NCBI GenBank assembly: GCA_018263575.1
Contig: JAANWX010000080.1
Location: forward strand, 1 to 35,426
DNA from: Chloroflexota bacterium
GTDB lineage: Bacteria; Chloroflexota; Anaerolineae; Anaerolineales; UBA11858
Length of the DNA stretch: 35,426 nt
Reading direction: 5' to 3'
Of the stretch, positions 11,774-19,538 are shown in pieces. The notes beneath the pieces were generated by a model. That model worked only from the letters and a program-made list of their open reading frames with translations. It was not told the origin of the DNA and ran no database searches. Positions within the stretch are counted from its first letter, which is position 1, and the number at the start of each line of letters is the position of its first letter. Both the position numbers and the translations under genes were made by a program.

Positions 11774-11956
11774 GTTTATATTATACTCCAAATGACATTT
11801 TTAGGGAGAGAGCCGCTCAGGTTGGGAGTATGTTTCTATGTGCAACTGCCCTGAGGGTTATTGTACTTCTTTCTTCTATTTGGGAGAAGATGCGATAAAA
11901 TAGGGGCTAATGACAAAATAGATTGCCACACCCTTATCCTGAATTCAGGAGAATTA

Positions 11957-13000
11957 ATGAAATTCCGATTTTTGAGTATTCTACTGCTTTTATCCATCGC
12001 CGGTTGCGCAGTGGCCACCCCAGGGGAGACCCCTCCTCCTGCCCCCTCTGGCACGTCTTCCCCTCCGGCTGCGACCGTTCCCCCCCCTTCGCCATCTCTT
12101 GCTCCCAGCCCATCCCCCGCCCTGCCACCCTTGGGCATTTTCCTTGCTCCTGCTAATGCTGACGCTGTCCTCGGGGAGGATTTACGCACCCTCACCTCCG
12201 CTTGGGCCGAAGAGGATGGTCTCCGTTTCCAACTTCGCGAAACGCTATCTGAAAATGACTTTGTGGCGGAAGATATTCATTGGGTAGTCGCCCTGCCGCC
12301 CCTTTCTAACTTGGAGGGTTTAGCCGCTTCAGCCCCTGAAACACGTTTTTTGGCGGTTGGCTTTTCTGACCTCGAAGCCACCGGTAACCTGAGCGTGATT
12401 CGCCCGGGAGTTTCTCATTTCGATCAGCAAGGTTTCATGGCCGGTTATATCGCCGCCATGATCACCCCTGACTGGCGCGTGGGCGTGATAGGCCTCGCAG
12501 ATGACCCGGCTGGGAAGGCGGCCCGAGAGGGGTTTACCGCCGGCGCTATCTATTTTTGTGGATTGTGTCGCTCCGAATATCCGCCATTTTTTGAATATCC
12601 CCTCTTCGTGGAGCTAGATGCTGAGGCCAGTTCTTCGCAGTGGCAATCGGCCGCGAACATTTTGCTCAACAAGGGCGTAGAAACTATTTACCTTGTCCCC
12701 GGGGCTGGGGATGATGACTTACGCCAATATTTAGTCCAATCTGATGTGAACCTTATTGGAGGCGGGGAGGAAGTGACAGAAACAATCGCTGAGCATTGGG
12801 TTGTCTCACTGCGCTTTGACCTCCTGCAGGTTGTTGAGGAGCATTGGCCTGAGTTTGTGGAGGGTGCGGTGGGTGCGAGCGTCCAGGTTCCGCTCACCTT
12901 GGCTGACATTAACTCAGATTTACTAAGCCCTGGCCGCCAGCGTTTGGCCGAGAAAATACTCGAAGAGGTTGTAGCCGGTTTTATTGAAGTTACTCCATAA
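11957..13000 (+). CDS. BMP-like lipoprotein, divergent substrate-binding protein
   Basis: A 347-residue lipoprotein from the ATG at 11957, chosen because AGGAG lies five bases upstream and a clean signal follows (MKFRFLSILLLLSIAGC, lipobox Cys17). A Pro/Ser/Thr-rich tether (~20-58) leads to an alpha/beta binding domain. The domain resembles BMP/PnrA-type proteins (PETRFLAVGFSD, FMAGYIAAMIT, WRVGVIGLADD, AANILLNKGVETIYLVPGAG) but lacks several conserved residues seen in the neighbour at 13700. It would be anchored outside the membrane. Proximity to a complete BMP importer suggests an accessory or alternative binding protein; a sensor role is also possible. It is separated from that operon by ~700 bases of repeat-bearing DNA. 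Confidence 0.7.
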   Translation: MKFRFLSILLLLSIAGCAVATPGETPPPAPSGTSSPPAATVPPPSPSLAPSPSPALPPLGIFLAPANADAVLGEDLRTLTSAWAEEDGLRFQLRETLSENDFVAEDIHWVVALPPLSNLEGLAASAPETRFLAVGFSDLEATGNLSVIRPGVSHFDQQGFMAGYIAAMITPDWRVGVIGLADDPAGKAAREGFTAGAIYFCGLCRSEYPPFFEYPLFVELDAEASSSQWQSAANILLNKGVETIYLVPGAGDDDLRQYLVQSDVNLIGGGEEVTETIAEHWVVSLRFDLLQVVEEHWPEFVEGAVGASVQVPLTLADINSDLLSPGRQRLAEKILEEVVAGFIEVTP

Positions 13001-14947: not shown

Positions 14948-16807
14948 ATGACTCCAATTATTGAAGCGCGGAATATAACCAAACGTTTTCCTGGCGTGTT
15001 GGCTAACGATGATGTTAGCTTTACGCTGAACAAAGGAGAAATTTTAGCCTTTTTGGGCGAGAACGGAGCCGGAAAAAGTACTTTAATGAACATCCTTTAT
15101 GGGCTGTACAGCTCAGATGAAGGAGAAGTAAAAGTGCGCGGCAATTCCGTCGACATCCAAGGCCCCAGCGATGCTATTGAACTTGGCATAGGCATGGTTC
15201 ACCAGCACTTCCAGCTTGTCCCAGTTTTTACAGTAGCAGAAAATATCGTCATGGGGACGGAGCCTACCCAGTTCCCGTTTTCATGGTTCGCCTTTGGCTT
15301 GAGCAGCGGAATTGTGGCTCTGCTTTCTTTTTTAGGAGCCATGATAGGCCTAAACAATGTAGGGCAATGGTTATTGGCCGCCTTAGCCGGAGGTGGGATT
15401 GTAGCAGGTTCTTATCTTTTATTTTATCTTCTAGGTCGGATTAGCAGCCAAAAAGCAGGAGTTTATATTCCCGTAATCTCTGCAATTGGCATTACTGGCG
15501 GCGTGGTTTCGGCTTTGAGCCAAGGAATGCCAGGGCAGATTCCCCTCTACATCATCTTGTCCATACTTTTTGCGGCCGCCTCTTACCCAGCGCTGCGTGT
15601 TTTAGCCACCGCCCTGGATAGGCACACGGCGGCCCGGCGCATCCGCGAGCTATCGGAGCAATATGGGTTGGTCGTGGATCCTAAAGCCCTGATCGAAGAT
15701 ATCCCCGTTGGCATCCAACAACGGGTGGAAATACTCAAAACGCTCTATCGCGAAGCTGATATTCTCATTTTAGATGAGCCTACGGCTGTGCTTACCCCCC
15801 AAGAAACTGAGGAATTATTCGAAATTATCCAAACGTTGGTTGACCGAGGGAAATCTATTATTTTCATTACCCACAAGCTAAAAGAGATCATGAGCTTTGC
15901 TGATCGCGTTGTTGTTCTGCGAGATGGACGGGTTGTGGGTGAGACCACGCCTGAGGAATCGTCTCGAGGAGAATTGGCGGAAATGATGGTGGGGCGTGAG
16001 GTCTCTCTAGTGGTCGATAAAGAACCTGCTGAGGCCAAGGAAGTCGTTTTAGAGGTTGAGGGCATCTCTGCAGAAGACGACCGGCAACAGACCGTTTTAC
16101 GTGATGTCAGTTTATCTGTGCGTTATGGTGAGGTTTTGGGCGTGGCCGGGGTGCAAGGAAATGGTCAAACAGAGTTGGTCGAGGTGCTGACGGGGTTGCG
16201 TACCGCCACAGCGGGGCGTTTCCACATCCTTGACCAGGAGATGACCAACGCTTCCCCCCGCCGCATTACCGAATTGGGTGTGGCCCATGTTCCCGAGGAT
16301 AGGCAGCGAGTTGGTTTGGTTTTGCCATCACCCGTTTTCGATAACCTGCTCTTGAACACCTATTATAAACCTCCCTTTGCCAAAAGAGCTATGCTTCAAT
16401 TTGACGAGATTCATGCCTACGCACATCGCCTGGTTGAAGAATTTGATGTCAGGCCGCCTAATGAGGAATTATTAGTTGAATCCCTTTCCGGCGGCAATCA
16501 ACAGAAAGTTATCGTCGCCCGTGAGTTCTCTCGCCCCATAAAATTACTCATTGCCGCTCAACCTACCCGTGGCTTGGATGTTGGCTCCATCGAATACATT
16601 CACCGCCGTCTCATTGAAAAACGGGATGAGGGCACGGCTGTACTATTGGTCTCGGTAGAACTCGATGAAATCATGGCCCTTTCTGATCGCATTGCCGTGA
16701 TGTACGAAGGTGAAATTGTGGCCACTGTTGACGCGGATAAAGTTACTCGTAGAGAACTTGGCCTGCTTATGGCGGGGTCAAGTCTGGATACACTAAAGGA
16801 GGCATGA
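14948..16807 (+). CDS. BMP-importer ABC ATPase (double NBD) with a four-helix membrane insertion
   Basis: A 619-residue ATPase with two nucleotide-binding domains, as in the YufO/NupO/RbsA-like energisers of BMP-type nucleoside importers, which are usually ~500-520 residues. NBD1 has Walker A GENGAGKST (38-46), Q-loop MVHQHFQLVP, signature-region PVGIQQRVEIL (253-263) and Walker B ILILDEPTAVL. NBD2 has the degenerate GVQGNGQTELVEVL typical of the family, LSGGNQQKVIVAREF and AAQPTRGLDVGSIE. Between NIVMGTEPTQ (~99-108) and LDRHTAARRIREL (~223-235), where relatives have only a few residues, lie ~115 residues with four hydrophobic segments (about 111-134, 138-163, 170-192, 198-222). The frame is uninterrupted. 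The stop lies inside the Shine-Dalgarno-start region of the next gene. The insertion is highly unusual for a cytoplasmic ATPase domain and would tether it to the membrane. Confidence 0.93.
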   Translation: MTPIIEARNITKRFPGVLANDDVSFTLNKGEILAFLGENGAGKSTLMNILYGLYSSDEGEVKVRGNSVDIQGPSDAIELGIGMVHQHFQLVPVFTVAENIVMGTEPTQFPFSWFAFGLSSGIVALLSFLGAMIGLNNVGQWLLAALAGGGIVAGSYLLFYLLGRISSQKAGVYIPVISAIGITGGVVSALSQGMPGQIPLYIILSILFAAASYPALRVLATALDRHTAARRIRELSEQYGLVVDPKALIEDIPVGIQQRVEILKTLYREADILILDEPTAVLTPQETEELFEIIQTLVDRGKSIIFITHKLKEIMSFADRVVVLRDGRVVGETTPEESSRGELAEMMVGREVSLVVDKEPAEAKEVVLEVEGISAEDDRQQTVLRDVSLSVRYGEVLGVAGVQGNGQTELVEVLTGLRTATAGRFHILDQEMTNASPRRITELGVAHVPEDRQRVGLVLPSPVFDNLLLNTYYKPPFAKRAMLQFDEIHAYAHRLVEEFDVRPPNEELLVESLSGGNQQKVIVAREFSRPIKLLIAAQPTRGLDVGSIEYIHRRLIEKRDEGTAVLLVSVELDEIMALSDRIAVMYEGEIVATVDADKVTRRELGLLMAGSSLDTLKEA

Positions 16808-16810
16808 GCC

Positions 16811-18253
16811 TTGACAGAAGAAAAGCAAGGTTTGGGTTTGTTCAAGAGCCGCATAGCCGCTTGGCCATCGTGGGCTAAGTTAGTTTCCGTAGCAGCTTTG
16901 TTGGGCGTCATAGTATTGGTTAGCAAGTGGCTGATTTTACTTTTATTGGTTGCCTTGGGTCTTTGGCCAATTTTGGTTTTATTGGGCCTGGGCATTTTAG
17001 GGGTTGTGTCTACGCGTCACGGGGGATGGCCATGGATGAAGGAATGGTTGGGTACCAAGTTAAAGCCATTGGTCTTGCCAGCTCTTGCTGTTCTGGCAGC
17101 TCTTATCCTTGGTGGTTTTGTGATTATGCTCACCGATAATGCCGCTTATCAAGCAATAGGAGCTGGTCAGGTAGGAAAGGGAATAGGCTTGGCGTTTAAG
17201 AATCTTGTCCGCGCTTATGTTGCCCTCTATCAGGGAGCATTGGGAAGCCCGGCAAGAATTCTATCAGCCATCTTTCGCGGCGCTATAGGTGGAGAAGGCC
17301 TGAAGCCTATTATGGGCGCTGTGCGCGGCCCTAGCGATAGTTTGGTTCAATCTGTACCTTATATTTTTGCTGGGCTAGCTGTGGCTTTGGGGTTTCGTTC
17401 TGGATTGTTCAACATTGGGGCAGAAGGACAAATAGGAGTGGGTTGGCTGGTATCAGTCATAGTTGGCTTTTCATTCCCCTCCTTGCCAGGCATTATCCTT
17501 TTGCCGATGGCTATTATAGCCGGGGCCTTGGCGGCCGGGATATGGGGGGCGTTGGCCGGATTGCTCAAAGCCGAGACGGGAGCCCATGAGGTTATCACCA
17601 CCATTATGTTCAACTATATCTCTTTTCGCTTGAGTGAATGGATATTGTGTGGGCCGCTTGAAAATGTTCAGGGCACTTGTCGGACTAAAGACGTTGTCCC
17701 TGCGGCCTATTTGCCTAAATTTCTAGATCATCCAGTCACCATGCACTGGGGCTTCATCTTGGCCCTCCTAGCCGCTGCGGCTACCGCTTGGTTACTCTTT
17801 AAAACTACCTGGGGGTATGAGATGCGCACCGTGGGCACCAATCCCGATGCCGCTCGTTATGGAGGAATGAACGTCTCTAGAACCTATGTTTTAGCCATGT
17901 TCCTTAGTGGGCTTTTGGCTGGGCTGGCCGGTGTTAGCCAGGGATTAGGATTAACCCATAACATTGCCCTTGGCTTTAGCGCAGGATATGGTTTTGACGC
18001 CATTGCCTTGGCCTTGTTAGGGAAAAGTAACCCGGTGGGTGTGGTTGGCGCTAGTATTCTCTTTGGCGTCTTGCGAGCTGGCGCGGCACGCATGCAATCT
18101 TTGGCTGGAATTCCTACCGAAATCGTGCAAATCGTCCAATCTTTGGTGATTGTCTTCATAGCAGCCCCAGCCATTATTAAGGCTGTCTATCGCCTCAAAG
18201 ATGACGGTGATGAAAGCAGACAGACTGTGTTCTCGCGCGGTTGGGGATCGTAA
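16811..18253 (+). CDS. BMP-importer permease 1 (YufP/NupP-like) with extended N terminus
   Basis: A 480-residue integral membrane permease starting at TTG, with GGAGG eight bases upstream and the preceding ATPase stop three bases away. The conserved core begins around 177 (DSLVQSVPYIFAGLAVALGF, then RSGLFNIGAEGQIGVGWL) and includes the EAA-like coupling region (YEMRTVGTNPDAARYGGMNV). Also visible are GFDAIALALLGKSNPVGVV and ILFGVLRAGAARMQ. Relatives reach the LFNIGAEGQ motif after ~60-80 residues; here there are about 100 extra residues with three or more hydrophobic stretches (~24-72 and ~86-108). It is followed by the second permease after 10 bases. The two permeases form the membrane channel for nucleoside-type substrates. 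Confidence 0.93.
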   Translation: MTEEKQGLGLFKSRIAAWPSWAKLVSVAALLGVIVLVSKWLILLLLVALGLWPILVLLGLGILGVVSTRHGGWPWMKEWLGTKLKPLVLPALAVLAALILGGFVIMLTDNAAYQAIGAGQVGKGIGLAFKNLVRAYVALYQGALGSPARILSAIFRGAIGGEGLKPIMGAVRGPSDSLVQSVPYIFAGLAVALGFRSGLFNIGAEGQIGVGWLVSVIVGFSFPSLPGIILLPMAIIAGALAAGIWGALAGLLKAETGAHEVITTIMFNYISFRLSEWILCGPLENVQGTCRTKDVVPAAYLPKFLDHPVTMHWGFILALLAAAATAWLLFKTTWGYEMRTVGTNPDAARYGGMNVSRTYVLAMFLSGLLAGLAGVSQGLGLTHNIALGFSAGYGFDAIALALLGKSNPVGVVGASILFGVLRAGAARMQSLAGIPTEIVQIVQSLVIVFIAAPAIIKAVYRLKDDGDESRQTVFSRGWGS

Positions 18254-18263
18254 GGAGATATCG

Positions 18264-19538
18264 ATGACAGCACAAGCGCAATCTATAGATATACCAAAAG
18301 CAACTGAACTTAGCCGCAAAGACCTCGTTATTGCCGTGCTTTTCCTCATATTGGGCGGCCTGATCCTTGTCCTGGGCGGATTTGGGACCCAGCCAGGCGA
18401 AAGGGCAATTTTCACCGACCAAATTTTAGGAGATTTGTTTTCTTTAGCCTCCCGTAGCACGCTTTATACCATTGGCAGCATGTCAATACTCATAGGTGGT
18501 TTACGATTAATACGCGCTTTAGATTCCCTTAAGTCTGTCCTCACCTGGGGGGGCATCTTTTTAATGGTGTTTGGCTTTTTGGTGTGGATTACGAGCGGCA
18601 CGAAGCTAAACATCACGGGTATGGTGCAGAGCATGTTGACCGCCGCTACCCCCTTGACCCTGGGCGCCTTGGCTGGCATCCTCTGCGAGCGGGCGGGGAT
18701 TATCAACATAGCCATCGAGGGCATGATGCTTTCCGGAGCCTTTGCCGCTGTGGCCTTTGCCGGGATTTTCAACAACCTATGGCTAGGCTTATTGTGCGCT
18801 AGCTTGGTGGGTGGCCTTATGGCCGCTGTCCACGCCGTGTTATCCATAAAATATAAAGTAGATCAAATCATCTCCGGTACGGTGATCAATATATTGGCCG
18901 CTGGCGCAACCCGCTTTTTGAACTTGCGCCTTCTTGAACCCTCTGGCTTGAGCGCACCCGGACAATTGGGCGCAATACGTATTCCCCTCTTGGCTGATAT
19001 TCCCATTATCGGGCCTATCTTATTTGAAAACTCACCCACTGTTTTCATTATGTTGATTTTAGTGGTGGTCATCAATTATGTCGTTTTCTTCACCCCGTGG
19101 GGATTAAGGATGCGGGCCTGTGGGGAACATCCTCGCGCGGCGGATACAGTTGGCGTGCACGTCAACCTTATGCGTTATGTCAGCGTGACCTTGGGTGGAC
19201 TCATTGCCGGGATCGGGGGCGCCTACTTCTCCCTGGACGTGGTAGGGGCCTTCGAGGATAACATGACCCGTGGGCAGGGCTTTGTCGCCTTGGCGGCTAT
19301 GATTTTCGGAAATTGGAGCCCCGTGGGCGGGTTCCTGGCCGCCCTCCTTTTTGGCTTTGCGGACGCTATTCAAGTGAAAATGCAAATCTTGCGTCCCATT
19401 TTACCCTTCCTGAACGTCTATATCCCCCACGAGTTCTTGCAGACCGCCCCTTATATTCTCACCATCATCGTCGTTGCCGGCGTGGTGGGCCGCTCACGAC
19501 CTCCCGCTGAGGAAGGGAAACCGTATGAAAAACAATAA
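18264..19538 (+). CDS. BMP-importer permease 2 (YufQ/NupQ-like) with extended N terminus
   Basis: A 424-residue integral membrane permease. The ATG at 18264 has AAGGAG seven bases upstream; an in-frame ATG at 18201 lies inside the previous gene and is rejected. The core starts near 124 (MLTAATPLTLGALAGILCER, AGIINIAIEGMMLSGAF) and contains the coupling loop LRMRACGEHPRAADTVGVHV and RGQGFVALAAMIFGNWSPVG. In relatives that core begins within the first ~30 residues. Here it is preceded by ~115 residues containing about three membrane helices (LVIAVLFLILGGLILVLGG, the segment around STLYTIGSMSILIGGLRLI, and LTWGGIFLMVFGFLVWITSG). It is the last gene of the importer operon; the antitoxin-toxin remnant converges on it. 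Confidence 0.93.
   Translation: MTAQAQSIDIPKATELSRKDLVIAVLFLILGGLILVLGGFGTQPGERAIFTDQILGDLFSLASRSTLYTIGSMSILIGGLRLIRALDSLKSVLTWGGIFLMVFGFLVWITSGTKLNITGMVQSMLTAATPLTLGALAGILCERAGIINIAIEGMMLSGAFAAVAFAGIFNNLWLGLLCASLVGGLMAAVHAVLSIKYKVDQIISGTVINILAAGATRFLNLRLLEPSGLSAPGQLGAIRIPLLADIPIIGPILFENSPTVFIMLILVVVINYVVFFTPWGLRMRACGEHPRAADTVGVHVNLMRYVSVTLGGLIAGIGGAYFSLDVVGAFEDNMTRGQGFVALAAMIFGNWSPVGGFLAALLFGFADAIQVKMQILRPILPFLNVYIPHEFLQTAPYILTIIVVAGVVGRSRPPAEEGKPYEKQ

Follow-up and report, generated by a model that had tools for sequence, protein, structure and literature searches.

Does an ABC importer operon in which the ATPase and both permeases carry extra predicted membrane segments encode one intramembrane module that was gained as a whole, or are its parts of different age? 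An earlier note had raised this question for a 35,426-nucleotide stretch of Chloroflexota DNA (hereafter the window), which is contig C101 in a draft genome of 2.7 Mb. The operon consists of four genes, all on the plus strand, in the order BMP substrate-binding protein, ATPase, permease P1 and permease P2:

13700..14722, plus strand: BMP/PnrA-type substrate-binding lipoprotein, 340 aa (Pfam PF02608, E 1.1e-59; score 202 bits, cut-off 24.1).
14948..16807, plus strand: ATPase with twin NBDs, 619 aa, of the type found in BMP/sugar importers (PF00005 twice; best NCBIfam model NF047930, under its cut-off; aligned with relatives).
16811..18253, plus strand: permease P1, 480 aa, TTG start (PF02653, E 5e-45).
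18264..19538, plus strand: permease P2, 424 aa, ATG start (PF02653, E 4.5e-39).

On these family matches we assign the operon to the BMP/PnrA family of ABC importers. The PF02608 lipoprotein, the twin-NBD ATPase and two PF02653 permeases with the family's motifs are all present, and the FNIGAEGQ-like and NIAIEG-like permease motifs occupy positions that are invariant or nearly so in the alignments. From the family alone, the substrate is probably nucleosides or similar solutes. In the conserved columns of an alignment of 32 ATPases, the Walker A and B motifs of NBD1 are canonical and the LSGGN signature of NBD2 is intact; ATPase activity is therefore expected. A soluble, helix-free ATPase is usual for importers of this family without being strictly defining, and the window ATPase, with four predicted membrane helices, departs from that trait. 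Gene content and gene order are those of the BMP/PnrA nucleoside importers (YufNOPQ/NupNOPQ of B. subtilis, PnrA/Bmp); relative to the Bacillus systems, the window adds the four-helix insertion in the ATPase, an N-terminal block in P1 and a three-helix extension in P2. In NCBIfam, the ATPase (476.8 bits) and both permeases match best to the 'putative B6 ABC transporter' set NF047927-NF047930, to which the binding protein matches weakly; identification with that importer was rejected, all scores lying far under the curated cut-offs (476.8/670, 126.9/400, 162.1/465 and 43.6/400 bits). Upstream of the window operon (11861-13000, plus strand) lies a gene for a 379-aa protein that by eye resembles a degenerate BMP-type lipoprotein and has no Pfam match. 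Among related loci, two BMP genes encode proteins of 684 and 662 aa (L058:5042-7096 and L118:480-2468, respectively), and the former contains two stretches that both align with the BMP protein of the window, which suggests a tandem duplication of the binding domain.

The claim that the ATPase contains a membrane insertion held up in comparison with related operons, which were fetched around the best ATPase match and comprise 40 relatives (38 without and two with the insertion) and 20 further genomes:

15263..15613, plus strand: insertion in NBD1, residues ~106-222, with four predicted membrane helices and both ends cytoplasmic (from Q-loop-to-signature spacing and helix dG).

About 110 residues are placed in the helical subdomain of NBD1, between the Q-loop and the signature, and the protein measures 619 aa in the window against mostly ~505-520 aa in relatives. 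The Q-loop-to-signature spacing is 158 in the two insertion-bearing relatives, with an equal layout in the window, against 48 (47-55) in the others; it is normal in 58 of 58 non-carriers (48 in nearly all, up to 55, with a few read from alignment blocks only). Four membrane helices are predicted by dG in 3/3 carriers and membrane-like segments in 0/38 normal ATPases. The third helix is weak in the window ATPase (dG 2.1), a figure to be read with the caution due to any single value of this predictor, which was coded anew from published parameters. In all three carriers, the loop joining helices 2 and 3 and the stretch past helix 4 carry positive charges, which fits a cytoplasmic location of both regions. 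An AlphaFold model of the ATPase places the insert helices at residues 113-132, 138-166, 170-191 and 195-220 with low confidence (pLDDT mostly 44-73), and the insert aligns at about residues 104-106 of MalK. The long-frame ATPases of L116 and L125-L129 were rejected as further carriers: they are fusions, tails or N-terminal overcalls, and their spacing is normal. Gene fusions in the sample include P2 joined to the ATPase in an 883-aa frame of a permease-first operon (L125:3438-6089, genome G220) and P1 joined to P2 in a single 865-aa frame (L073:909-3506, genome G041).

The insert evolves faster than the remaining ATPase (62-76% versus 82-85% identity among carriers) and is under purifying selection. 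Its dN/dS is 0.11-0.20 across the three carriers, and the remaining ATPase and the part of P1 behind residue 75 show 0.01-0.09; these ratios are approximate, with synonymous sites near saturation in several comparisons. Several possible origins were tried and rejected, namely a known domain (best Pfam E 0.23), a relative of a solved structure (best E 0.043, a hydrophobic match to cellulose synthase), a copy of P1 or P2 (profiles show no similarity) and a mobile or repeat-flanked element (flanking repeats are unconvincing and G+C matches the surroundings). A search for a second copy elsewhere in the window genome returned chance-level matches only. Such an insert could be a membrane domain with a regulatory or sensing role on NBD1, responsive to membrane potential, to lipid state, to a partner protein or to a small ligand, without docking on P1. 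The helical subdomain is a known attachment site of this kind, serving as the docking site of the regulator MlaB on MlaF in MlaFB (PMC7367683), and the insert is located in the half that supplies the non-canonical signature VGIQQ. However, no meaningful match to Pfam domains or solved structures was obtained and the three sequences show no obvious conserved cluster of polar residues that would suggest a ligand site, and we consider a purely regulatory role improbable.

The permeases require a more differentiated account. According to the earlier note, each has gained ~100-115 extra N-terminal residues with about three membrane helices, and all three core subunits acquired membrane segments together. 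For P2, the feature in question is the following:

18264..18617, plus strand: N-terminal extension of P2, residues 1-118, with three predicted helices, an ancestral feature of related operons in this order (39 of those sampled combine it with a normal ATPase).

The extra helices are predicted at residues 20-42, 64-86 and 92-110, and the core motif lies at residue ~145 against 36-71 in short members of the same order, so that length and helix number stand as described when short members are the reference. Against most relatives they do not, as the extension is shared: among operons with a normal ATPase it is present in 39 and absent in 12, the rest being cut by the contig end, and the operons without it are mostly those with the permease genes first. 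Since 39 operons combine it with a normal ATPase, the P2 part is much older than the insertion, and judged by this distribution the extension is ancestral and ordinary in the order. A search of plasmid records with P2 yielded no example of the extension outside the phylum, the matches mostly beginning at residue ~139. Three operons of the same order (L043, L050 and L119) illustrate the contrast: they resemble the window in gene order, P2 extension and long P1 loop, and their ATPase cores are ~60-68% identical to that of the window, whereas their ATPases are normal (~505-520 aa) and no helix stands ahead of the first helix of P1. The window operon does have all three extensions, as one co-evolved intramembrane module would predict, but the 39 operons with a normal ATPase make that reading highly improbable, and the joint gain by three subunits had to be abandoned. 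The P2 extension could have been recruited later as a pre-existing docking surface.

In P1, a lineage-specific segment is followed by the helix with which the family's permeases begin:

16811..17035, plus strand: P1 residues 1-75, lineage-specific hydrophobic block with two predicted helices, the one strong and the other weak, a probable hairpin (in the window, G009 and G006 only among 400 genomes of the order; dN/dS 0.11-0.135).
17069..17137, plus strand: canonical first helix of P1, residues ~87-109 (matches the first helix in all relatives).

The FNIGAEGQ motif lies at residue ~199; most related operons have it at ~115-170, and short forms at ~85-103. The described excess therefore applies to P1 in comparison with short forms; relative to most operons it shrinks to residues 1-75, the long loop behind the first helix being common to relatives, and one of the three supposed extra helices (~87-109) is the family's first. 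By alignment, residues 1-75 are all that is special to P1. The first predicted helix of this block is marginal, and an AlphaFold model of P1 shows residues 20-69 as a single long helix of low confidence, with no hairpin. The best solved-structure matches of the P1 model are weak (E 0.005-0.02) and fall on BtuC and PsaC-like permeases, those of the BtuCD and PsaBC systems (type II and related folds); BtuCD and PsaBC importers use separate single-NBD ATPases. A P1 homologue of 551 aa from the same genus (L057:1530-3185, genome G008), encoded beside a normal ATPase, has ~145 extra N-terminal residues before the first helix that lack membrane segments and show a resemblance, under the cut-off, to part of a BMP binding domain (E 0.0099 with Pfam Bmp).

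Internal start codons just before the conserved cores would account for the long permease N-termini in another way. A putative ribosome site (AAAGGAGG or AAAAGGAGG) lies 7-8 nt upstream of the P1 TTG in 3/3 genomes, and site and TTG are kept even in G009, where ~228 nt separate P1 from the ATPase gene (locus L039; 3 nt in the window and G006). Codons 1-75 are under purifying selection at the dN/dS given above. Taken together, the conserved ribosome site, the TTG and the low ratio make an internal start of P1 unlikely, and a start at Met76 (17036) was rejected on the same grounds. Misassembly, a frameshift or wrong start codons might nevertheless be suspected in a genome that is a draft and, like those of the two relatives, probably metagenome-assembled. 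Yet three separate assemblies share this arrangement, and in them the frames are open, dN/dS is well below 1 and the ribosome site is conserved, which leaves the chance of an artefact close to negligible. As judged from these sequence signatures, the insertion and the P1 block are translated and conserved.

The insertion and the P1 block share a narrow distribution. Both are carried by the window genome, G009 and G006, the window's two fellow carriers being MAG Chloroflexota bacterium CSMAG_882 and MAG Chloroflexi bacterium B10_G9; the three (n=3, all draft genomes) belong to one genus by kinship codes, and each segment was found only where the other is. In a sample of 400 genomes from the order, the insertion query and the P1 N-terminus query both scored above chance in these same three genomes only, and across 400 genomes sampled from the phylum the insertion query recovered the window only. 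In a collection of 84,980 species the insertion query found the two relatives only, in a scan for short exact patterns that diverged copies could escape: a single-sequence query returned nothing, and a three-sequence query returned both relatives. Weaker matches to the two queries were short and hydrophobic, some of them in broken frames. No helix-bearing extra P1 N-terminus was found in the normal-ATPase operons scanned for helices; for the P1 frames of operons checked later, the comparison used length and the position of the motif. The co-occurrence of extensions and insertion across genomes that the earlier note envisaged is thus borne out for the P1 block and fails for the P2 extension and the P1 loop. 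In an ATPase tree from which the insertion was left out, the three carriers form a clade with 100/100 support, so that the insertion needs one gain; this clade adjoins other ATPase-first operons with modest support, and its stem measures 0.34 of a total tree length of 10.65 (3.2%). Besides this operon, each of the three carriers has another BMP gene, located close to a further twin-NBD ATPase whose alignment shows no insertion (G000:C31, G006:C13 and G009:C265), and the modified importer therefore probably coexists with a normal one.

Whether the two segments belong together depends on how their shared branch is read. They could have accreted independently on the same long stem, at permissive sites and without interacting. 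Theirs is a single joint event (n=1), and chance could have linked them on a stem of moderate length. The N-terminus of P1 is highly variable in the group (as in G008, with its normal ATPase), and the insert lacks profile kinship to P1. On the other hand, the coincidence of both rarities, each unique in the sample, on a 3.2% branch is suggestive, and both segments are under purifying selection. Two independent rare gains on this stem are unlikely, although the branch was chosen post hoc and the comparison is not a formal test. Overall, we regard separate accretion as unlikely, if by no means far-fetched. A co-gain of two subunits, the P1 block and the ATPase insertion, on one branch is possible on the comparative sequence data.

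These observations can be accommodated in a history of two layers. The older layer consists of the three-helix P2 extension and the long P1 loop, common to related operons of the order. On the stem of the three genomes, the ATPase gained its insertion of ~110 residues with four predicted helices, and P1 was lengthened at its N-terminus by about 60-75 residues, in which one or two helices are predicted. As the number of insert helices is even, NBD1 would stay cytoplasmic, and its helical subdomain would be tied to the bilayer close to where the coupling helices dock; coupling helices dock in a cleft of this subdomain (PMC3150292). The motor would become a permanently membrane-anchored subunit and, more speculatively, the new P1 helices may form part of the docking surface of the anchor. 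We tentatively favour, as a nearly even call, the reading in which the insertion serves as a membrane anchor for NBD1 alongside the permease, perhaps against the extra helices of P1. The stronger version, an integral membrane motor subunit whose insert helices pack on the new helices of one permease, tethering the motor and possibly altering coupling, seems to us rather doubtful.

The P2 extension and much of the apparent oddity of P1 are ordinary in the order, and it is the ATPase that bears on the wider view of these transporters. ABC motor domains are viewed as highly conserved, with diversity lying in the membrane domains (PMC8386196), and we found no precedent for membrane insertions in ABC motors in the open-access literature. 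A conserved membrane-spanning insertion in the helical subdomain of the motor, by the site of coupling to the channel, would be an unusual architecture, and it would offer a natural test of whether tethering of the motor alters coupling.
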